In this document: positions 382 through 63,767 of the stretch, in pieces
How the letters are laid out: the number at the start of each line of letters is the position of its first letter
Position numbering within the stretch: the first letter of the stretch is position 1
Assembly (NCBI GenBank): GCA_963930775.1
Contig: OZ005699.1
Location: forward strand, 641,501 to 705,500
Direction of reading: 5' to 3'
Origin: Cliona cf. orientalis
Taxonomy: Eukaryota; Porifera; Demospongiae; Clionaida; Clionaidae
DNA: 64,000 bases
Notes under the pieces: model-generated
What the model was told of the DNA's origin: nothing
Seen by the model: the letters and a program-made list of their open reading frames with translations, nothing else
Database searches by the model: none
Program-made: the position numbers and the translations under genes

Positions 382-28545
<28,164 letters not shown>

Positions 28546-37200: not shown

Positions 37201-39065
37201 CATAGTTGAGTCCGAGAATCTGTGAGAGGAGAATTGCTCCAGTGATGCCCAGCTGGTGGCTGACTCCAACTGACCCTCGCAGATGCACAGGAGGAATCTC
37301 GGTCATGTAGAGAGGCAGAACGGCCGTATTTGTTCCTGCAAGTTGTGGGAAAAACGATATAAATATTGACCAGCTTCCTTAAATACACCATTAGCCTGGT
37401 GCCAAAATTTGTACACTACAAAGAAAACTACTAGTACCGGTAGCCCATTTTGAGGAGCAGTTTAAAAAAATGTGTCTGCAATTATAAATCCATTACACTT
37501 AATTGTGTGTAATTTGAGCTGTTGGTAACATACATACCACAAACACACCAAAATTTGAGAGATCTAGGTAACAGTATACTGATAGTATACTTCCCTATCA
37601 GTATCAGTATACTGGTACCTAGATCTCTCAAATTTTAGTGTATTTATGGTATGTACATTTGTATGTACCTGAGTTTATGCCACATACGAATCGACCAATG
37701 ATGAACATTGCTGGGTGGACGGCAAATGACTGCAAAATCACGGCTAGGCCAATGACAAGGTTATTGAGCAACATGGTATATTTCCTGAAAGAAACAGGAA
37801 TCCATTAATTAAGTCATTGAAGCGATAAATAATCATACATATTTCACTCTATTACCACTGCTACTGTACAATCCCATATTCTCACATACCACAGTTCTCT
37901 CAGTGAAGCCAGCCTTAGCCTAACCATTGTCCATGCAACAAAAAGAAGGCTGCTTTGCCTTTCAAACACAAGATTCAGGTACCTCACTGAGTGTGCCTAA
38001 ACAAGCACTGAGAGATATTTTTACCCAATAAGCTTGGGACTGGATAAACCTGAGCTTTCATATGAATAGGCGGGTACCTGTACCTTTTGGTAGCTAGACA
38101 TTGCACAGTGCATGGCATCATATGGCATTGTGCATCTATATAGTCTGTTTGTACCTTCCAATGTGGTCAGCAATGAACCCCCCAGTCAGAGCTCCTGTCA
38201 TCCCACCAATAGCATAGATGGCCACTGCAATGTACACTTCGGCGTTGGTGAAGTGTACGTGTAGTCTAGAGGCATTGCTGTTGAATGAGTCTGTGATCGC
38301 CTGTGGAGAGTGTGTGTGTGTATGTGTGTGTGCACGCATGGATGTATGAATTTTTTTGTAGCCAGCTGCACAATATTTCATAATATTACTACATGTACAA
38401 GTTTATGTTTAATCAAATTCCATACCCACACTCTACAAACTTAACAGCTTGGTTACTCTTATTCTAGGAAACCAGCATGATGCGGACTTTCATCTTCATG
38501 TCTACCACGTGTACACACTGATTTTTGTTTACTTTACAAACTTACTCCTTTGGGGTTGTTGATGACTCCAGTGTTGTATCCAAACTGTGTGCAAGAGCCG
38601 ATGATCGCCACCAGCACGGTCAGCACTAGGACACAGGTCACTCCTCTCCACTTGCTGCTCTGCTGCTGGTTCGCACTAACTGCTTGCTTCTGAGAAAAAA
38701 AAATTAATAACGATACGTATACAGCACTGACCATCAGTTGCTACTGGCTAAATTGATGAATTTATCTGTTGGCAACTATAAGTCCATGCATGCTGAAGTG
38801 ACCGTCTATGTGTAGCTTGCGTATCCTAAGTGTTTGATCTTATTTTATCGTTATAGATCTAGCAACTTTGACAGCAAACATACAAATATTTAGACAGCTC
38901 AGTAGCCCCACCCACCTGAACGCCGACAGCGGTGATATCGGAGCTCGGCTTTGTGCCCTCTTTCTCTGAGGGCTTGATATCTTCTCCTGTACTAGTCTCC
39001 AACTCATCGACGGCGTCTCCTAGGTCGATAGAGTCTAGAAGATTGTCTAGATCCTTTTCCGACAT
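34276..39065 (-). CDS. Facilitative sugar transporter, SLC2A/GLUT family (copy 2, long C-terminal tail)
   Basis: Exons, 5' to 3': 39065-38916, 38689-38546, 38300-38155, 37784-37669, 37335-37202, 36110-35954, 35898-35843, 35777-35643, 35569-35465, 35379-35278, 35207-35102, 35045-34918, 34828-34667, 34592-34491, 34404-34276. Total 1872 nt, 623 residues. Motifs: GYNTGVINNPK, GRKYTMLLNN, GRFVCGINSG, PESPRYLYI, QQLTGMIG in TM7 (Thr where copy 1 has Ser), GPGAIPW and PETKGRS. The N-terminus is a 50-residue acidic cytosolic segment (SEKDLDNLLDSIDLGD). Two extra 3' exons add about 76 charged residues after the usual GLUT end. Intron 5 houses two hAT-like elements, and intron 4 contains a long foldback. 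The first four exons and their introns are closely matched by the pseudogene at 42959-44320. Confidence 0.92.
36216..36638. mobile_element. hAT-like non-autonomous element 2
   Basis: Inverted ends CACTGGCGTAAGAA and TTCCTACGCCACTG (imperfect), flanked by CCTAT on both sides. It contains a G19 run and a 53-bp perfect palindrome. Lies in GLUT copy 2 intron 5. Confidence 0.7.
36408..36460. repeat. 53-bp perfect inverted repeat
   Basis: 25-bp arms starting GTCACATGTGAACACAGATC with a 3-nt loop, inside hAT-like element 2. Confidence 0.85.
36676..37106. mobile_element. hAT-like non-autonomous element 3
   Basis: Ends CAGGGGCGGATCTAGG and CCTAGATCCGCCCCTG (16-bp perfect TIR) flanked by ATTAG on both sides. 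CAGGGGCGGATC is a common hAT-type terminus in invertebrates (family knowledge). Lies in GLUT copy 2 intron 5, 37 bp from element 2. Confidence 0.8.
37531..37655. repeat. Foldback in GLUT copy 2 intron 4
   Basis: Imperfect inverted repeat spanning 125 bp, with a long matching core AAATTTGAGAGATCTAGGTA and outer TACATACCA. Confidence 0.75.
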
Positions 39066-39273
39066 GTTCGCAATCGATATAACCCCGCCCACCTTGACCT
39101 TTAAAATACCGATATTCATTTCCTCGCATAGTAATTTATGCGCATGCGTGCTAACACTGTGGAATTTCTGCAATGATTATTATACAAGCAGCTGTAACTG
39201 GACTACTGGTAAAGATTAACGGGATATAAAAACACTCAGCAAAGTTCATAATTATTAGGGATGGCTGCATTAG

Positions 39274-41566
39274 CTAAGTGCTAACAAGATGCACTTCGGG
39301 GAGAGTAGATTCATTTTTTATGGTCGGGTAGTCATAGGCCGCACTGAAGTTGAGGTGGTTCTCCTTTTGAGGCTCTGGAGGTGGCTGCTTCACCTTGAAC
39401 ACCTTGACTAAGATGACCATAACTAGCACAAGGAGCATAATAACAGCCCCAATAGCAACATAGCCAGGCACTACAGTGTGTAGGCTGGTTTGTGCCGAGT
39501 CTTGCTGATTATCACGGTCTCCGACTCGATCGTCAGTCTGGCCAGTGGTCACTGCAATAGTTTGAGGGGGAGTTGTTTTCGCCACAGTGATGCTGTCTGC
39601 AGTTATAGTCTTAGGTTGAGGGGTAGTTGCAGCCATTATGGTACTATCTTCAGTCAGAGTAATTGTAGTGACATCTTCAGTTGTTGGCCCAGCATGCGCA
39701 GTTGTGGTGACATCTTCAATAATTGTTGGAGCAATTGTGGTGATATCTTCAGTCGTTGGAGTTGTGGTGGTGACATCTTCAGATGTAGTGGTGACGTCTT
39801 CAGTCGAAGCGATTGTGGTGACATCTTCAGTCGTTGGAGCAGTAGTAGTGATGTCTTCAGTCGTTGGAGGAGTTGTGGTGACATCTTCAGTTGTTGTGGT
39901 GACGTCTTCAGTTAAAGCGATTGTGGTGATATCTTCAGTCGTTGGAGCAGTTGTAGTGATGTCTTCAGTCGTTAGAGCAATTGTGGTGATATCTTCAGCC
40001 ATTGAAGCAGTTGTAGTGACGTCTTCGGTTGTGGTGATAGTTTCTATGCCAGGAGTTACGCTAGTTGTACCATGGTCATACAGAGAGCAGAAAGAGTAGG
40101 TAGGGTCTTGGATTATATGGAAGCCAGCATTATAAATGGTGACAATACTGTTGCAGGCACTGACTATCTCTCCCATTGCTGCATAGTTTTCAAAGATGCT
40201 ACCACTGTTGATTACTTCCAATTATGGCAATCACTCCACCTCTCTCGGTTGCATTGTTAAAACTAAAGATGCTCTGACTGATAGTCACATGACTGCCAGC
40301 TCTTCCAACATACATCACTCCACCATCACCACCCGCTCTGTTGTTGGTAAAAAAAGAATCAATAATAGTGTATACAGTAGGGTAAAAGTATGTATGCAGC
40401 ACTCCTCCATTCCCACCAGCTGTGTTGTTACTAAAAATAGATCTCTCTATGATGACATCACTTTCATCCACTTGTATCACTCCAGCATCTCCGGCTGCTG
40501 AGTTATGACTGAATGTGTTATCCAGAAGTAAGATGGAGGCATTTCTAATGCAAATTACTCCTCCTCCATTATTGCCAGAAATTTGCCTTACTGCTCTATT
40601 GTAGACAAAAGTATTTCCAGTTATGTTAACATTGTCATGATAGAATTCAGCGACTTCCATCACTCCACAGTAGGCTGCTGTTTTGTTGATGAAAGTATTA
40701 TTCACCAGTGTTATGTTAGTATAGCGTCTGACTGAGTGTATGGCCCCTCCCCCTCCAGCAATGGCTTTATTGTTGATGAAACTGCTGTTAGTGATAGTGA
40801 TATTGTTACCATCAAAATAAATAGCTCCACCAGCAGTTGCCACTGAATTGTCACTGAAGTTACTATTGAGTATATTCAGATTTCCATCATACTGATATAT
40901 TGCACCTCCATATGTATCACTGTTGCAACTATGTGGATAATTATCCCTGAAGGTAGATTGTTCAATTACAAAAGTGGATCGATAACCATGGATGGCTCCG
41001 CGGTACACTCTGTTATTAGAAATGATGCACTGTCTGATCAGCACTGAAGAGTACCGAGAATAAAGAGCAGCTCCACCGGAGTAACATCCACTAGCATCCA
41101 AAAATGAGCTTCTTTCAAATGTTGCATTTGTTACATACCACAGCTCCATCCTGCTATTAAAAGTGACACTTCTTTCAAATATTACATTTCTTACATACTC
41201 CAGGTTCATCCTGCAGCCAACAAAAGTGATACCACTGATATGAACCTGCTGCAGTTGATTGAAATAGAATCGTTGTTGTCCACATGCGACTGTAGCTGAA
41301 TTATTAGCTCTCATTATAATGGAATTAATATTTTGCACTCGCAGTTGAGAATTCAGGCTATGGTTTCCAGGGTGAAGTTCAAAGGTGATGTTGGAGCTCA
41401 GACTAGGATTAGAGACGTACTGCTGTAGAGTGAGACAAGGCTCTCCAGTGAACTCCCCAGGACAGGGGCTGTCTGGAGAGGGAACAATGTTCAACCTCTC
41501 ACAGCTGGAGTACTGAACAGCATTCAGGAGGAGGAGCAATAATATTGTAGCAGAAATAAAATTCAT
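39274..41566 (-). CDS. Beta-helix surface protein A: mucin-like stalk, single membrane helix; frameshift near 40210
   Basis: Apparently intronless. Residues 1-20 form a signal peptide (MNFISATILLLLLLNAVQYS), then S-P-D-S-P-C-P-G-E-F-T-G-E-P-C-L-T-L opens the ectodomain. Many right-handed beta-helix rungs follow, with the Pmp-like pattern S-x-F-x-x-N and G-G-A-I-Y, numerous N-x-S/T sites and paired Cys. The frame ends at a TAG at 40199-40201; the continuation (from NSGSIFENYAAMGEIV) is in another frame that runs to TAG at 39274. Against gene B, whose two modules agree with each other here, 8 nt are missing, so this is a frameshift or an assembly error. Then come TYSFCSLY, a Thr-rich stalk of repeated TTEDVTT/TTEDITT (about 39640-40050), a membrane helix (about 39415-39475) and a tail containing AYDYPTIKNE and LPEVHLVST. 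The beta-helix family call is firm; function is unknown. Confidence 0.8.
39640..40050 (-). repeat. Coding minisatellite of the gene A stalk
   Basis: Repeats of a unit encoding T-T-E-D-[VI]-T-T plus a few variable residues, with lengths of about 7-12 codons. The plus-strand motif GT(G/A)GTGA(C/T)(A/G)TCTTCAG recurs more than ten times. Confidence 0.85.
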
Positions 41567-42688
41567 TTTATGCCAGATATCGATATCACTGTTAGGCCAA
41601 TCAAACTATATTATTAGTTTCTTGTCCACCCGTTTTTATATTTCTATGCGGGCGGGTGGTCATTATTCATTATCCATTATTATGGCATTTTGAGGGAGCA
41701 AAAAAGAGGTGTGGCTGGTATTTCAAGGCAATAATGAAGGCAGATGCGGTAGGTTGAAACTGACATGGGAGGTGACGAGAAACCGTAACATTCAAGTTTA
41801 TGTGGCCTTGTATATTATATTATATACACTATAAAAAACTAATGGCTATTTTAACAGTTGTCTCGGTTTCACGCCTCCTTTCTAGATCATTAACCATGTT
41901 AGCATGAGGAGATCTCATTGTCTGAATATTCCAGATTCCTAATTGTAAACAACTTAATATACATTTTCTGGAACATTGGTTAATCATGCAGAGGAGTCAG
42001 ATGCAATACATGTAGACTATATAGCTAAGTAATACATTAAAATGTATACCTTAAATGAATGGTTTTGCACTTTGCCAACTGATGGTCTTCAGTTATAAAC
42101 TGATCCCAGATTCTATACTGATTATTATGCATACATAATCATTCACTGAGTAGGCTATTATGAATCAATCCAGCTGTCGATAAAGGTCGAGCATGTGAGA
42201 TTATAACATGCATATTATGGACCAAGTGACTCTGCAATCATTCCACTCTAGCTTGCATGCATCTTTTGAGATATTACCAGTATCAGCTTCATTAATAGAT
42301 CTATCTATGGATGATTTTTGAAATGATTCCCACATCCCTAGTAGCGTCACTGTATATGGTAAAGGGTCACTATGTATATATGTAAGTAGCATACTTGAGT
42401 TATATATGCAATGTTATGTAATCGTCAAAGTGCTTTAAAGGGGCATAACTTGAAAATGAACATAGATGACAAACTTTAAAAATTTTATAGAACCATTTTT
42501 TACTGGTATATATCTGTGCCAAATTTCAAGATCTGATGCCCTTACGATTCGATACCCTTAGCTACTGTTTCAGAAAAGTAAATTGCTACTATATAGGGAT
42601 GTACTAATAATTAATATGTGATAAATGTGGTGGAAACATAATATAGCTAAAACAAAAAAAATTAATGCTTTAAGTTTATATTCATACA
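41567..42688. other. Spacer upstream of beta-helix gene A
   Basis: 1.1 kb with no credible gene. Parts near 42133-42320 resemble the upstream flank of gene B (48690-48910), so the 5' flank was carried along in the duplication. AT-rich, no TATA box or other element called. Confidence 0.5.
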
Positions 42689-42958
42689 TCATGATGCAAC
42701 TTCAGGGAGAGTAAGTTCATTTTTCATGGTTGGATATTCATAGGCCTTGAAGTTGAGGCGATTCACTGTTGGAAGCTCGAGAGGTGCCACTGGGTGCTTC
42801 ACCTTAAACACCTTGACTAATATGACTACACCAAACAGGGCAACTAGCACAAAAAGCATGACAACAGCTCCAATGGCAACATAACCAGGCACTATAGTGT
42901 GTAGGCTGGTTTGTGCCGTATCTTGCTGGTTGTCTTGATCTTCAACGTTAACCTAGCT
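42689..42958 (-). pseudogene. 3' fragment of a third beta-helix surface protein gene (C)
   Basis: Homologous only to the last 90 codons of genes A and B: the end of the stalk (QQDTAQTSLHT), membrane helix (GYVAIGAVVMLFVL, then GVVILVKVFKVK) and cytoplasmic tail with AYEYPTMKNELTLPEVAS, ending in TGA at 42689-42691. No beta-helix or signal peptide is present upstream. Homology stops at about 42958, where GLUT exon-4 sequence begins. It is the remnant of a deleted gene, but its tail is still open and conserved. Confidence 0.8.
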
Positions 42959-44320
42959 ATTGCTGGGTGGACGGCAAACGATTGCAAAATCACAGCTAGG
43001 CCAATGACAAGGTTGTTGAGCAACATGGTGTACTTCCTGAAAGAAACAGGAATCCATTAAGTCATTGAAGCGATAATAATCATGTATACAATGTCATATT
43101 TCACTCCATTACCACTACTACTGTAAAATCCCATATTCTCACATACCATAGTTCTCTCAGCAAAGCCAGTAGCCATTGTCTATGCAATAAAAAGGAGGCG
43201 GCTATGCCTTTCAAATACAAGATTCAAGTACCCAACTGAGTGTGTCTAAGCAAGTACTGCGAGATATTTTTCCCCAATAAGCTTGGGATTGGATCATATG
43301 AATAGATGTATTGGGTACCTGTACCTTTTGGTGGCTAGATATTGCACAGTGCATATAATAAAAGGCATTGTGCGTCTATAATATAGTCTGTTTGTACCTT
43401 CCAATGTGGTCAGCAATGAAACCCCCAGTCAGAGCTCCTGTCATCCCACCTATAGCATAGATGGCCACTGCAATGTACACTTTGGCATTGGTGAAGTGTA
43501 TACGTGTAGTCTAGAGGCATTGCTGTTGAACGAGTCTGTGATTGCCTGTAGTGTGTGTGTGTGTGTGTGTGTGCACGCATGGATGTATGAACTTTTTGTA
43601 GCCAGCTGCACAATGTTTCATAATAATATTATTACTACATGTACAAGTTTATGTTCGTGTAATCAAATGCCATACCCACACTCTACAAACTTAACAGCTT
43701 GGTTACTTTTACTCTAGGAAACCAGCATGATGCGACTTTCGTCTTCATATCTAATAAGTTCAACCATGTGTACACACTGATTTTTGTTTACTTCACACTT
43801 TGGGGTTGTTGATGACTCCAGTGTTGTATCCAAACTGTGTGCAAGAGCCGATGATTGCCACCAGCACGGTCAGCACTAGGACACAGGTCATTCCTCTCCA
43901 CTTGCTGCTCTGCTGCTGGTTCACACTAACGGCTTGCTTCTGAGAAAAAATTATTAAAATTAATGATACAGCATTGACCATCAGTTGCTACTGGCTAAAT
44001 TGATGAATTTATCTGTTGGCAACTAGGAAATCCATACATGCTGAAGTGACCTTCTATGTGTAGCTTGCGTATCCTAAGTGTTTGACCTTATTTTATCGTT
44101 ACAGATCTAGCAACCTTGACAAGGAACATACAAAATCCTTCTATTTAGACAGCTCAGTAGCCCCACCCACCTGAACGCCGACAGCGGTGTCAGCGGAGCT
44201 CGGCTGCGCGCCCTCTTTCTCTGAGGGCTTGGTGTCTTCTTCTGTGCTAATCTTCAACTCATCAATGGTGTCTCCTAGTTGGATAGACTCTAAAAGATTG
44301 TCTAGATCCTTTTCCGACAT
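42959..44320 (-). pseudogene. Truncated SLC2A/GLUT pseudogene (copy 3)
   Basis: Matches copy 2 exons 1-4 and their introns: exon 1 44320-44171 (open, 50 codons), exon 2 43939 to about 43798, exon 3 about 43543-43397, exon 4 fragment 43036-42959. Three lesions: about 10 nt around the exon-2 donor are missing compared with copy 2, so the GTAAGT donor is gone; a 2-nt insertion in exon 3 near 43500 shifts the frame and produces an early stop; and exon 4 breaks off inside the AVHPA segment, where sequence switches to the beta-helix fragment. Nothing corresponding to exons 5-12 is present. The intron similarity to copy 2 indicates a fairly recent duplication. Confidence 0.87.
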
Positions 44321-44579
44321 GGCTGGTTTGTCTCTCGTAGGTAACCCCGCCCACCCTGACCTTAAAAATGACGAGATTCATTTCCTTGATAATTATGCGC
44401 ATGCGTGCTAGCACATACTATATACAATGCTTAGATATCTTAAAAGCAATGAAGTATTAAAATATGCCTCTAGATATGGGTGGCAGCTCTATAGCTGGAC
44501 TACTCTAACAATAGATAAAGTTAAAAAAAAGCTTTACTATAAAGTTTTATACATAAGCTCATTTTCAGAGAGGGGTGTA

Positions 44580-47500
44580 TTAAGTGCTAACAAGGTGCAC
44601 TTCAGGGAGAGTAAATTCATTTTTAATGGTTGGATATTCATAGGCACTGACGTTGAGGCGATTCACCTTTGGAGGCTCGAGTGGTGGTCGCTTCACCTTG
44701 AACACCTTGACTAAGATGACCATTACTAGCACAACAAGTACAACGAGCACAATAAATACAACTCCAATGGCAGCGTAGACAGGCACTGTTGTGTGGAGGC
44801 TGTTTTGTGCTGTATCTTGCTGGCTATCTTGATCATCTATGTTAACCTTGCTAGTGATCATTGTAACAGTTTCTGCTGAATCAGGTTTCGTTGTATGAGT
44901 TGAACGGGTGTCTTCTGTAGCTGGTTTGGAAGTGACATCATCACGGTCTGGTTGGTGGGGTGTTGTTCTAGCCATGGTGATGCTATCTGTAGTTGTGTCC
45001 TCAGCCTGAGAGACAGCTGTAGTCATTACGGTAACATCCTCAGTAGTATCGTTAGGTTGAGGGACAGGTGTGGTTGTCATGGTGACGCCCTCAGTTGTAT
45101 CATTGAGTTGAGGGAGATTAGTTGCTGTCATGGTGACATTCTCTTCAGTAGGTTGAGGGATAGTTGTGGTCGTTATGGTGTCAGTGGTATCATCTGTTGT
45201 GCTGATATCTTCTAAATCTTCCGTTGTATTTCTCTCCTGAGTCCAAGGGTCAGTGGTGGGTAAAACTGATGTTGTAACAGTCGTTGGGGACACTGAATCG
45301 TTATATGGAGCACAAAGTGATGACACTATAGGATTTCGAGTTGCTAGGACTACAGGGTTGACAATAGTGACGTTGCTATTGCATGAGTTAACTACTTCAC
45401 CAGTTCTCGCAAAATTCTCATAAACGCTGGCTCGATTGAGTTGAAGGGTGCTTCCAATAATAGCAATGACTCCTCCTCTTTCAGCTGCATAGTTGTTACT
45501 AAAGGTACTCCCATATATTGTCACATGACAGCCACCTCTTCCGATGTACATTGCACCTCCATCACCTCCAGCTTGGTTGTTGGTAAAGGATGAATTGACG
45601 ATCATGTAGTTGGTGGGATATAAATAGGTTTGTAATGCTCCTCCATTCCCTCCAGCTGTATTGTTACTAAAAATAGATCTCTCAATTGTTATTTGGCTAT
45701 CGTCAGCCTGTATCACTCCAGCATCTCCAGTCGCTGAGTTATGACTGAAATTGTTATCCACGACAGAAATGGAAGCATTTCTAGCACAGATTACCCCTCC
45801 TCCATTGTTTCCAGGTATGACATCTATTGCTCTGTTGAAAGTGAAAGTGTTTCCAGTGATATTTAAGTCAAAGTGGTAAAATTCAGTCATTTTGATCACG
45901 CCACAGTAGGCAGCAGTGTTGTGACTGAAGGTATTATTCACCAGCAACATGATAGCACTGCCACTGTACCATCTTGATGCAAAATATATGGCCCCTCCAC
46001 CTCTGCCATTCGCTGTGTTGTTGATGAAATTGCTGTTAAAAATTGTGACGTTGGCATTGTTGAAGTGAATAGCTCCTCCATCACCACCACTACGTGCTCT
46101 GTTGGCCTTGAAGGTACTGTTAAAAATGTTAACACCATGTGGTAAGTAATCAAAAATGATACCAGTATTATTCTTAAAGGTACAATTACTTATACTGACA
46201 TCCTGTCTGTCATTAGAGCCTTGGAAATTGATGCCATAGTTATCCTTGAAGATGCTGTTAACTATGTTGACTCGTCCATTGGGATAGACTGCCATGCCAT
46301 TATAGTAACCAGAATCTATATAAATTGCTCCTCCACCATAATAATAGTAACCAGGATAATAATAGTAACCAGTATTAAAACTGTTACTGTTATTGCTGAA
46401 GAGACTTTGATCAATTGTTAGCGAAAACAAATTTGATCCAGAAAAGGAAATAGCTCCATTTCTGTTGTTAGACATTGTACATTGTTGGATCCACACAGAA
46501 GAGCCATAGGTGCTCAAAGCTACTCCATTCCTAGTACGGTTTAAAAATGAGCTTTTCACAACTGTGGCATTGACTACTGATCCCAGATTCATTGAGCAAC
46601 CAATGAATGTAATGCCACTGACATGAATCAGTTGCAGTCGATTGAAGTCAAATGATCTATAATATGTTTCCTCTCTGCATATTATTATAACTGTAGTTGA
46701 CATATTTCCATGCATTGTAAAGGAATAGATGTTTGACACGTAAAGCCGGGTATTTAGATGGTGGGTTCCAGGATGGAGATTAAGTGTTATATTGGGGCTG
46801 TGGCTAGGAGGATAAGCTGCATATTGCTCAAGAGTGAAGCAGGGCTCCCCAGTGAACTCACCAGGACAGGGAGAATCTGGAGTGGGAACAATGTTAGTAA
46901 TGTGTACCTGTGAAGCAGGGCTTGAGGTAGTTACATCATCAATCTCAGCAATTGTATAGTTAGCAGAAGATATATTAGTAGTTACACTTTCATTGTATAG
47001 AGAGCAGAATGAGTAAGTGGGATCTTGATTTAATAAAAGGTCCAGATTGAAAATTGTTGTATTACTATTGCAGGCACTGATAGCATCTCCTAGTTCAGCT
47101 GAGTTTCCAAAGATGCTAGAGCCATTCATTTCTAGTGTGCTCCCGATAATGGCAATCACTCCTCCTCGATTAGTCGCATAATTAAAGCCAAAGGTACCTT
47201 GATTAATGGTCACATGACTTAGAGCTCTTCCGACATACATCACTCCACCATCACCTCCAACTCTGTTGTTGATAAAGGAACAATCCGTGATTGTGTATGT
47301 GGTTGGATAAAAGTAAGTATGCAGCACTCCTCCATTTCCTCCAGCTCTATTGCTACTAAAAATAGATCTATTGATGATGATGTCACTTTCCTCTGCTTGT
47401 ATCACTCCAGCATCCCCAGCTGCTGAGTTATGGCTAAAAGTATTACCTGTAACTAAAACTGAAGCATTTCTAATACAAAGTACTCCTCCTGCATTGTTAC

Positions 47501-48596
47501 CAGATATCTGCTGTACTGCCCTGTTGTAGATAAAAGTGTTTCCAATGATGTTGACATGATAGTGATAAAATTCAGCGACTTCCATCACTCCACAGTAGGC
47601 TGCTGTATTGCGATTGAAGATGTTATCAACCAGCGAAATGTTAGTGTAGCGTCTAGCTGAGTATATAGCCCCTCCCCCTCCACTATTGGCTGTATTGTTG
47701 ATGAAACTACTGTTACTGATAGTGATGTTACCACCAAAATAGATAGCTCCACCAGCACCAGCGATGGCTGCATTGTTGATGAAAGAGCTGTTAGTGATAG
47801 TGATATTGTTACCATAAAAATAAATAGCTCCACCATTACCACGCGTACGATAAGTTGATACTGAATTATCACTGAAGCTACTGTTGAGTATATTCAAATT
47901 TCCATCACGTAGATATATTGCACCTCCATAAGTATCACTGCAACACCTATATGGATACCTATTATTCCTGAAGGTAGACTGTTCAATTACAAAAGTGGAT
48001 CGATCGCCATAGATAGCTCCGTGGTACACCCAGTTATTAGAAACACTGCACTGTCTGATCAGCACTGAAGAAGAGCGATATGCATAAAGAGCAGCTCCAC
48101 TATAGCAACATCTACTAGCATCCAAAAATGAGCTTCTTTCAACTGTTGCATTTGTTACATACCGTAGCTCCATCCTGCCATCAAAAGTGACACTTCTTTC
48201 AAATATTGCATTTGTTACAGATCCCAGGTACATCCTGCAGCCAACAAAAGTGATACCACTGACATGCACCTGCTGCAGTCGATTGAAATAGAATCGTTGT
48301 TGTCCACATGTGACTCTAGCTGAAGTGTTAGCTCTCATTATAAAGGAATTAATATTTTGCACTTGCAGTTGAGAATCTAGGCTATGGTTTCCAGACTGTA
48401 GTTCAAAGATGATGTTGGAGCTCAGACTGGGATTAGACACGTACTGCTGTAGAGTGAGACAAGGCTCTCCAGTGAACTCACCAGGACAGGGGCTGTCTGG
48501 AGAGGGAACAATGTTGAACCTCTCACAGCTGGAGTACTGGACAGCATTCGAGAAGAGAAGCAACAAAGGAGCAAAAATGAGATGGATTATCTTCAT
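44580..48596 (-). CDS. Beta-helix surface protein B: two beta-helix modules, Thr/Ser stalk, one membrane helix, conserved tail
   Basis: Single open exon. The chosen start (48596) gives 1338 residues and a clean signal peptide (MKIIHLIFAPLLLLFSNAVQ) matching gene A; the frame is open 27 codons further upstream without a signal-like start. Module 1 (about residues 28-530) and module 2 (about 567-1098) each open with a P-[DS/TP]-DSPCPGEFTGEPC segment, run through beta-helix rungs with N-[ST]-x-F-x-x-N and GGAIY repeats, and end near a Cys-containing CSLY or CAPY motif. A Thr/Ser/Asp-rich stalk (about 1100-1255) is probably O-glycosylated. The membrane helix is about 1271-1293. The tail has RPPLEPPK, a possible SH3 ligand, and AYEYPTIKNE, a possible SH2 or PTB ligand, ending HLVST. 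The rungs resemble chlamydial Pmp repeats by motif, which is a fold resemblance rather than orthology. Ligand unknown. Confidence 0.87.
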   Translation of the reverse strand: MKIIHLIFAPLLLLFSNAVQYSSCERFNIVPSPDSPCPGEFTGEPCLTLQQYVSNPSLSSNIIFELQSGNHSLDSQLQVQNINSFIMRANTSARVTCGQQRFYFNRLQQVHVSGITFVGCRMYLGSVTNAIFERSVTFDGRMELRYVTNATVERSSFLDASRCCYSGAALYAYRSSSVLIRQCSVSNNWVYHGAIYGDRSTFVIEQSTFRNNRYPYRCCSDTYGGAIYLRDGNLNILNSSFSDNSVSTYRTRGNGGAIYFYGNNITITNSSFINNAAIAGAGGAIYFGGNITISNSSFINNTANSGGGGAIYSARRYTNISLVDNIFNRNTAAYCGVMEVAEFYHYHVNIIGNTFIYNRAVQQISGNNAGGVLCIRNASVLVTGNTFSHNSAAGDAGVIQAEESDIIINRSIFSSNRAGGNGGVLHTYFYPTTYTITDCSFINNRVGGDGGVMYVGRALSHVTINQGTFGFNYATNRGGVIAIIGSTLEMNGSSIFGNSAELGDAISACNSNTTIFNLDLLLNQDPTYSFCSLYNESVTTNISSANYTIAEIDDVTTSSPASQVHITNIVPTPDSPCPGEFTGEPCFTLEQYAAYPPSHSPNITLNLHPGTHHLNTRLYVSNIYSFTMHGNMSTTVIIICREETYYRSFDFNRLQLIHVSGITFIGCSMNLGSVVNATVVKSSFLNRTRNGVALSTYGSSVWIQQCTMSNNRNGAISFSGSNLFSLTIDQSLFSNNSNSFNTGYYYYPGYYYYGGGAIYIDSGYYNGMAVYPNGRVNIVNSIFKDNYGINFQGSNDRQDVSISNCTFKNNTGIIFDYLPHGVNIFNSTFKANRARSGGDGGAIHFNNANVTIFNSNFINNTANGRGGGAIYFASRWYSGSAIMLLVNNTFSHNTAAYCGVIKMTEFYHFDLNITGNTFTFNRAIDVIPGNNGGGVICARNASISVVDNNFSHNSATGDAGVIQADDSQITIERSIFSNNTAGGNGGALQTYLYPTNYMIVNSSFTNNQAGGDGGAMYIGRGGCHVTIYGSTFSNNYAAERGGVIAIIGSTLQLNRASVYENFARTGEVVNSCNSNVTIVNPVVLATRNPIVSSLCAPYNDSVSPTTVTTSVLPTTDPWTQERNTTEDLEDISTTDDTTDTITTTTIPQPTEENVTMTATNLPQLNDTTEGVTMTTTPVPQPNDTTEDVTVMTTAVSQAEDTTTDSITMARTTPHQPDRDDVTSKPATEDTRSTHTTKPDSAETVTMITSKVNIDDQDSQQDTAQNSLHTTVPVYAAIGVVFIVLVVLVVLVMVILVKVFKVKRPPLEPPKVNRLNVSAYEYPTIKNEFTLPEVHLVST

Positions 48597-52169: not shown

Positions 52170-63767
<11,598 letters not shown>

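Follow-up and report, generated by a model that had tools for sequence, protein, structure and literature searches.

How sponges discriminate at the receptor level among microbes, symbionts and other sponges is, to our knowledge, largely unknown, and a beta-helix gene locus of the bioeroding sponge Cliona cf. orientalis raises the question of whether it encodes such receptors. A large clustered surface family joining a variable binding part to a tyrosine-bearing tail would be a concrete, testable candidate for sponge recognition and, if the reading is true, would carry over to an animal the Pmp-type adhesin plan that chlamydiae and Trichomonas have. Sequence of Symbiodiniaceae is reported from the sample in the genome note of this sponge (PMC12639293). 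The window, that is, the whole stretch analyzed (64,000 nucleotides on chromosome 11), carries three family members, of which gene A is real and intact, the sole intact-looking member within the window, and B and C are damaged. The features of A are as follows.

44580..48596, minus strand: gene A, intronless, receptor-like, 1338 codons (open frame; Pfam Beta_helix and Chlam_PMP)
48525..48596, minus strand: signal peptide of A, about residues 1-24 (read by eye)
46941..48524, minus strand: beta-helix module 1 of A, PDSPCPGEFTGEPC opening followed by rungs (sequence, Pfam and AlphaFold2 model)
46995..47666, minus strand: C-terminal half of A module 1, the constant part, 224 residues (cut by local alignment)
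45297..46895, minus strand: beta-helix module 2 of A, second PDSPCPGEFTGEPC opening (sequence and Pfam)
44802..45296, minus strand: Thr-rich stalk of A, 30% Thr (composition)
44709..44780, minus strand: single predicted membrane helix of A, limits approximate (hydropathy scan)
44583..44708, minus strand: cytoplasmic tail of A, 42 residues, with PLEPPK, YEYPTIKNE and LPEV (sequence)

PF02415 (Chlam_PMP) matched A with an E value of 1.4e-18 in Pfam, FxxN and GGA(I,V,L) rungs were repeated in the module, and Pfam together with the hydropathy scan showed that the plan of Pmp-type repeats with one C-terminal membrane helix is present in the genes of the window. The damaged copies and their neighbor are listed below.

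39274..41566, minus strand: gene B, one-module paralogue of A with a broken frame (open frames and comparison with A)
40199..40221, minus strand: frame break of B, the overlap of two open frames (open frames)
42689..42952, minus strand: fragment C, reduced to membrane helix and tail (sequence comparison)
42959..44350, minus strand: incomplete sugar-transporter-like gene copy (its first exons, by eye), truncated at fragment C (alignment and repeats)

The first-pass annotation had placed all three loci on one plan, which A shows in full; B shares it with one module instead of two and a broken frame, and C retains its end alone. Fragment C sits at the joint of a tandem duplication of ~5.25 kb, in which sugar-transporter exons were also copied. 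Positions 37707-39513 and 42959-44828 were 81.6% identical over 1931 alignment columns, the A tail included, and the duplication was also seen as repeats D6, D9-D11, D14, D16, D17, D19 and D20.

Tail motifs were counted in 29 tails, with L023, L026, L057 and L058 (frame-broken or truncated), L048 (short), L051 and L052 (GPI-like ends), L039 and L041 (spliced ends) and L011 omitted. Tyrosine was found in 29/29 tails, and YxxP, the Crk-type SH2 consensus, in 19/29 where shuffling expects 3.3, a count over related genes whose weight comes mostly from one cluster. A, B and C carry YEYP or YDYP; the ten tails in which YxxP was missing were those of C12 (2), C17, C19, C16 and five chromosome-1 genes (L043-L046, L053). 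The SH2/SH3-type signaling proposed in the first-pass annotation gained support on the SH2 side, but the SH3 consensus PxxPx[KR] occurred in 2/29 tails, those of A and B only. The motif Y-[DE]-Y-P-T-[IM]-K-N-E was, in its exact form (YxYPT[IM]KNE), confined to A, B and C among the 29 tails. Similarity of the A tail to those of C12a, C12b, C17 and C19b was weak (uncorrected p 0.0065-0.03, the lowest for C12b), and conservation of the tail across the family was rejected (for A compared with two tails from chromosome 1, p 0.52 and 0.59; with C16b, p 0.40; with C8, p 0.06). As a separate observation, [DE]xxxL[LIM] occurred in 9/29 tails, compared with 1.2 under shuffling, and seven of the nine are chromosome-1 tails. 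ITIM (0/29; 1.9 expected by shuffling), NPxY (0/29, the NPxY and not the NPxF form being counted), YxN and YxxPhi (7/29, below 10.3 from shuffling) were rejected as family-wide tail signals, their counts lying below chance.

If these proteins were endocytic or scavenger receptors, the tail would be a sorting signal, with YPT[IM] read by AP-2 as YxxPhi, and particles would be taken up without tyrosine signaling. YPTI or YPTM, a YxxPhi match, is present in A, B and C, and the Trichomonas study describes endocytic motifs in Pmp tails (PMC6701047). The family-wide shortage of YxxPhi and NPxY, however, means that this explanation would account for the locus in the window but not for the whole family, and we consider it unlikely.

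Across the Cliona genome, the family occupies 52-60 gene places, 24-30 of them on chromosome 1 (4.19-4.97 Mb); merging gaps of 600, 900 and 1300 bases gave 60, 59 and 52 places (30, 30 and 24 on chromosome 1), from match positions entered by hand with rows merely overlapping or adjoining entered ones omitted. A Chlam_PMP search of the genome, in which the best 150 of 2145 candidates were scored, found at least two places and gives no family count. The chromosome-1 members stand in tandem groups with broken copies. Secreted-looking (C3, C7 and C14 genes), GPI-like (two C11 genes) and single-membrane-helix forms were found, so the family has the membrane-anchored members expected by the first-pass annotation, and not every homologue is secreted. 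The close paralogues on C3, C7 and C14 end shortly after the module and were called secreted because the stop lies within a few residues of it, a provisional class: short hydrophobic frames follow L006 and L009, and splicing to a membrane exon may occur. Ig-fused paralogues on C19 and C3 were read by eye and were not confirmed by Pfam. A tree of 22 C-halves grouped the genes of the window with secreted-looking C7, C14 and C3 (support 100/99) and separated them from the membrane groups C1 and C12/C17; C16_5017 was labeled membrane although its frame stops before the hydrophobic stretch, and the A and B modules were entered as separate rows, so the number of changes is soft.

The modules of A and B were 80% identical (before the break in B) and their tails 81%. 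Omega was 0.20 for the A-B tails (Fisher p 0.0028) and 0.14 for the C12a-C17 tails (p 0.0004). The paired tails tested are thus under purifying selection, likewise the module, and the dN/dS check proposed in the first-pass annotation did not reveal neutral tails. Analysis of eight chromosome-1 genes showed that the membrane-proximal half of the helix was most constant (omega 0.11-0.14) and that the tail ranked with the more loosely constrained parts (0.54-0.62 across the gene sets used, C1_4952 being absent from some and included in 'all8'; 0.62 for the big cluster, bootstrap 0.39-0.93). The earlier picture of variable ectodomains on an unchanging tail was right only in part: tested tail pairs are constrained and middle rungs vary, but the A and B modules are as alike as their tails and the chromosome-1 tails are loosely held.

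A pure adhesin or matrix protein would stick to matrix or neighboring cells by its beta-helix, with the tail serving as anchor only and the secreted paralogues as a soluble matrix form. Such a role is consistent with a module common to secreted-looking, GPI-like and (by eye) Ig-fused forms, with the place of the window's genes in the tree and with the weak tail constraint in the big cluster. Purifying selection on two tail pairs and a tyrosine in every tail counted argue against it, and it seems improbable.

Variation among the chromosome-1 genes was found in the middle rungs, stalk and tail. N-half length varied between genes and C-half length was fixed (216 from landmarks in 7/8 chromosome-1 genes, the eighth set to 216 in agreement by eye); for C1_4753 and C1_4781, which miss the landmark, the N-half was started at the first Met. 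In most groups compared, the membrane-proximal half is constant and the middle rungs vary, but C12a versus C17 breaks this pattern. Patchy dS suggests gene conversion. Positive selection on the ectodomain was rejected, as no scorable 24-codon beta-helix window had pN/pS above 1 (in three, pairs were too few to score) and the sole window above 1 (1.07) lay in the stalk; the scan, NG86 on pooled related pairs with dS exceeding 1 in part of the regions, is crude. Histocompatibility receptors of the sponge that tell self from non-self, their specificity lying in polymorphic middle rungs, would fit the tandem-grouped places with broken copies, the patchy dS and the fixed C-half behind an N-half of varying length. 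The same features fit microbe sensing, and with the pN/pS result against it we hold this explanation to be quite improbable.

AlphaFold2 predicted module 1 of A, fairly confidently, as a right-handed parallel beta-helix, in line with the first-pass reading. Many of its structural neighbors are lyases, epimerases and glycosidases. Even so, a membrane-bound polysaccharide-acting enzyme of pectin-lyase fold is very unlikely, given 9-16% identity to the listed chains and no invariant acidic or basic residue in 16 C-halves, whose invariant columns are Phe, Asn, Gly, Ala and Cys.

Hydractinia Alr allorecognition receptors are likewise clustered and single-pass with tail Tyr motifs, but their ectodomains are Ig-like, whereas no Ig domain matched A or B in Pfam at E up to 1 and ITIM, as above, was absent from the tails. 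Sponge aggregation factors carry Calx-beta/Wreath domains, and Calx-beta was unmatched in A or B at the same threshold. Both the beta-helix fold and the single-membrane-helix plan have precedents in the Pmp proteins of chlamydiae and Trichomonas. Chlamydial Pmp proteins share the rungs, the right-handed beta-helix, the Chlam_PMP matches and variable-length N-terminal repeats ahead of a middle region of ~200 residues (PMC10715098). They differ in that the autotransporter barrel and Pmp middle domain were unmatched in A or B (Pfam, E up to 1), while the sponge proteins have an opening with Cys, a stalk, a membrane helix and a tail; convergence may explain why the fixed C-half looks alike. The NCBIfam POMP repeat matched paralogue L025 (E 5.6e-9) and not A. 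Trichomonas vaginalis Pmps are an expanded eukaryotic family with Pmp repeats, one C-terminal membrane helix, a short tail and demonstrated adhesion, as well as an ATPITK motif, NPx[YF] tails and an undetectable signal peptide (PMC6701047). ATPITK was absent from A and from the second frame of B, and the sponge genes have a signal peptide (by eye), mucin-like stalk and YxxP. Choanoflagellate membrane proteins also bear cytosolic YxxP, proposed to partner Crk, but have several repeats each under other ectodomains, rather than a short tail under a beta-helix (PMC5043372).

Our preferred reading, held tentatively at somewhat less than even odds, is that the A/B family consists of glycan- or microbe-binding adhesion receptors with phosphotyrosine docking. 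A and B would be type I surface glycoproteins whose right-handed beta-helix, with exposed loops and variable rung number, binds an extracellular ligand, most probably glycans on the surface of microbes, symbionts or other cells. The Thr-rich stalk, probably O-glycosylated, would keep the beta-helix off the membrane, the single helix would anchor it, and the short tail would offer a phosphorylatable YxxP site. Clustering may lead to YxxP phosphorylation and recruitment of a Crk/Nck-type SH2 adaptor, which could drive adhesion or engulfment; the genome encodes SH2 proteins, among them a Nck-like open frame. Architecture, family expansion, predicted fold, purifying selection, the constant membrane-proximal half, excess YxxP and the SH2 proteins support this as the best explanation. 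Counted against it were the ten tails without YxxP, the weak tail constraint in the big cluster, the short C3/C7/C14 ends, the C12a-C17 exception and the mostly ER/Golgi location of Trichomonas Pmps (PMC6701047).

A wider proposal, which we regard as speculative and rather unlikely, is an undescribed innate recognition repertoire of dozens of beta-helix receptors, with middle rungs varying between a constant cap and the membrane-proximal block and reshuffled by gene conversion, signaling through YxxP and Crk/Nck, and secreted or GPI-like forms acting as decoys or soluble partners. The open-license PMC literature yielded no account of this sponge family. An Amphimedon segment cluster in SECOM, likened by description only, is also a recurrent unnamed sponge segment, and 2/18 of its members have a known domain, annotated pectin-lyase-like (PMC3386278, Table 3). 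A contig pattern search for relatives beyond the Cliona genome gave 22 matches, 0 confirmed, and none on viral contigs. A PDB sequence search with protein A alone gave nothing below E 0.41; with the C-half profile, a hit to 7w5z_U2 ('Transmembrane protein, putative'; E 1.9e-16) was obtained.

The sequence comparisons showed that, of the three members at the beta-helix locus of the window, gene A is intact, gene B is damaged by a break in its frame, and fragment C is a remnant with a membrane helix and tail alone. The features of the locus are as follows.

C11:641501-705500: the window, in the 216.8-Mb assembly
44580-48596 (-): gene A, intact, 1338 codons, two beta-helix modules, Thr-rich stalk, membrane helix and tail
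39274-41566 (-): gene B, a single module but otherwise the plan of A; frame break at the overlap of two frames, 40199-40221
42689-42952 (-): fragment C, nothing but membrane helix and tail
37707-39513 and 42959-44828: copies in a ~5.25-kb tandem duplication, 81.6% identity over 1931 alignment columns
D6, D9-D11, D14, D16, D17, D19, D20: window repeats in this duplication
28761-51445 (-): sugar-transporter-like exons in repeated copies, interspersed with the beta-helix genes

Chromosome 11 of the assembly odCliOrie1.1 is 9.46 Mb long, and the primary assembly has a consensus quality of 58.0 (PMC12639293), at which the broken B frame is less likely to reflect a base error. Fragment C adjoins truncated sugar-transporter-like exons, a partial copy, at one end of the duplication. 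Pfam Sugar_tr was matched in four open frames of 28761-51445 (-), two of them above the cut-off.

Comparison of A and B over 450 aligned codons 5' of the B break gave an omega of 0.27 (dS 0.41, 80% identity), and the tails gave 0.20 (dS 0.42, 81% identity). Identity was 56% in the 45 codons beyond the break (dS 1.47) and 37% in the stalk. Within the module, the N-half had dS 0.19 and omega 0.49, and the membrane-proximal C-half had dS 0.91 and omega 0.13, the ratio of changes differing between halves (P = 0.003). A dS so uneven inside one gene is suggestive of gene conversion. Between modules 1 and 2 of A the contrast was nearly absent (omega 0.29 in the N-half versus 0.25 in the C-half).

The same contrast was observed in eight chromosome-1 genes, whose 216-residue C-half (from landmarks in seven genes; the eighth was set to 216, agreeing by eye) had a mean identity of 96% and whose N-half ranged from 305 to 424 residues. 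With the frame-broken C1_4952 left out, bootstrapped omega was lowest in the C-half at 0.11 (0.07-0.18); the N-half had 0.46 (0.37-0.58), stalk plus membrane helix 0.49 (0.41-0.58) and the tail 0.62 (0.39-0.93). At its start the N-half was constrained as well, over ~72 residues (window ratios 0.23-0.27), which leaves the middle rungs as the variable zone, with ratios of 0.33-0.92 in the windows scored. Four secreted-looking C3 copies showed a similar contrast (0.43 versus 0.19), which was absent between the C12a and C17 paralogues (0.24 versus 0.41). The C-half alignment spanned 205-237 residues at all of the 19 places except B (177, cut by its frame break), and its invariant columns in 16 aligned sequences comprised Phe, Asn, Gly, Ala and three Cys.

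The first-pass annotation had proposed a constant cytoplasmic tail under a variable ectodomain. Purifying selection on the tail reached significance in two pairs, A-B (P = 0.0028) and C12a-C17 (P = 0.0004). The proposal was only partly upheld: the modules of A and B are as alike as their tails, and in the chromosome-1 genes the tail ratio of 0.62 exceeded that of the C-half. With remnant C as the partner, the tail of A had an omega of 0.53 and that of B 0.38, both above the A-B value. In a tree of 22 C-halves the window genes fell with secreted-looking C7, C14 and C3 genes (support 100/99) and not with the C1 or C12/C17 membrane groups; on this tree the membrane label required three changes, at least two of them forced by well-supported branches, with the labels themselves soft. 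Placement and tail comparisons together indicate that the A tail is not constant across the family.

Tails were counted for motifs in 29 genes, leaving out truncated, broken, short, GPI-like and spliced ends. Tyr was present in all 29, and YxxP in 19 versus 3.3 expected when each tail was shuffled; as the tail genes are related, these 19 are not independent events. YxxP was distributed over three tail groups (C11, C1 and C8) and missing from the C12/C17/C19 tails, the C16 tails and five chromosome-1 tails. PxxPx[KR] occurred in two of the 29 tails (0.7 expected), and ITIM in none (1.9 expected).

Given the membrane anchor and YxxP, the simplest reading would be an adhesion or uptake receptor recruiting a Crk- or Nck-type adaptor. 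The Crk SH2 preference for pYxxP predates animals (PMC5043372). In this genome SH2 was matched 103 times, and a Nck-like open frame combines three SH3 matches with a partial SH2. The main rival is sorting or endocytosis. Motifs of the YPT[IM] type are textbook endocytic signals, and the YPT[IM] of the window tails could double as one; across the 29 tails, YxxPhi was found in seven (10.3 expected by shuffling) and NPxY in none (0.3 expected). For an adaptor-recruiting receptor of the A type, we infer a ligand, phosphorylation and an adaptor. The predicted ectodomain resembles beta-helix proteins that bind or cut glycans. Chlamydial and Trichomonas Pmps are surface proteins with a similar beta-helix; in the former, loops project from a single face of the FxxN/GGA framework (PMC10715098), and the latter raise adhesion (PMC6701047).

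Query P0001 gave at least 74 matches in its own genome and two paralogue queries at least 100 and 94, merging by distance into 52-60 gene places; chromosome 1 holds 24-30 of these at 4.19-4.97 Mb. A Beta_helix family search listed 122 matches, mostly outside these places. Paralogues on C1, C8, C11, C12, C16, C17 and C19 end in membrane helix and tail, those on C3, C7 and C14 stop a few residues beyond the module, and two further C11 genes have a GPI-like hydrophobic end. Ends without membrane helix on C19 and C3 appeared Ig-like by eye, with no Ig match in a Pfam search. In the C1 cluster (L023, L026, L057, L058), tails out of frame or ending early in several copies suggest birth-and-death turnover. 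Elsewhere on that chromosome, C1:15779000-15788999 (L041) carries two beta-helix modules; a frame downstream of them probably encodes a membrane helix, and RING-like and Ig-like frames (by eye) follow beyond it, in the same or a neighbouring gene.

A second class was represented by both of the two Beta_helix places read, which by eye have a multi-pass membrane part C-terminal to the beta-helix.

C7:9104000-9110600: L062, intronless
C3:11493000-11498000: L063, intronless (the two ~1300-1440 codons)

L062 was related to A across the opening and rungs (E = 6e-23) and shares the PCLTL opening; a Pfam search of it gave no family at cut-off. C7, C3 and C1 all hold clusters of long open frames that match Beta_helix.

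The beta-helix fold, the repeat type, the single-membrane-helix plan and YxxP in membrane proteins are already known; a description of the present sponge family was not found among the open-licence PMC papers searched. An Amphimedon segment cluster of 18 members, two of them pectin-lyase-like, listed in a tool paper (PMC3386278), is possibly related to the Cliona family.

Two other open frames lie in the window. The 1794-codon frame at 22496-27880 (+) is nearly pure coiled coil, golgin-like by eye, with no Pfam family above cut-off. The 658-codon frame at 56090-58066 (-) encodes both a protein kinase domain and Kelch repeats, an unusual combination.
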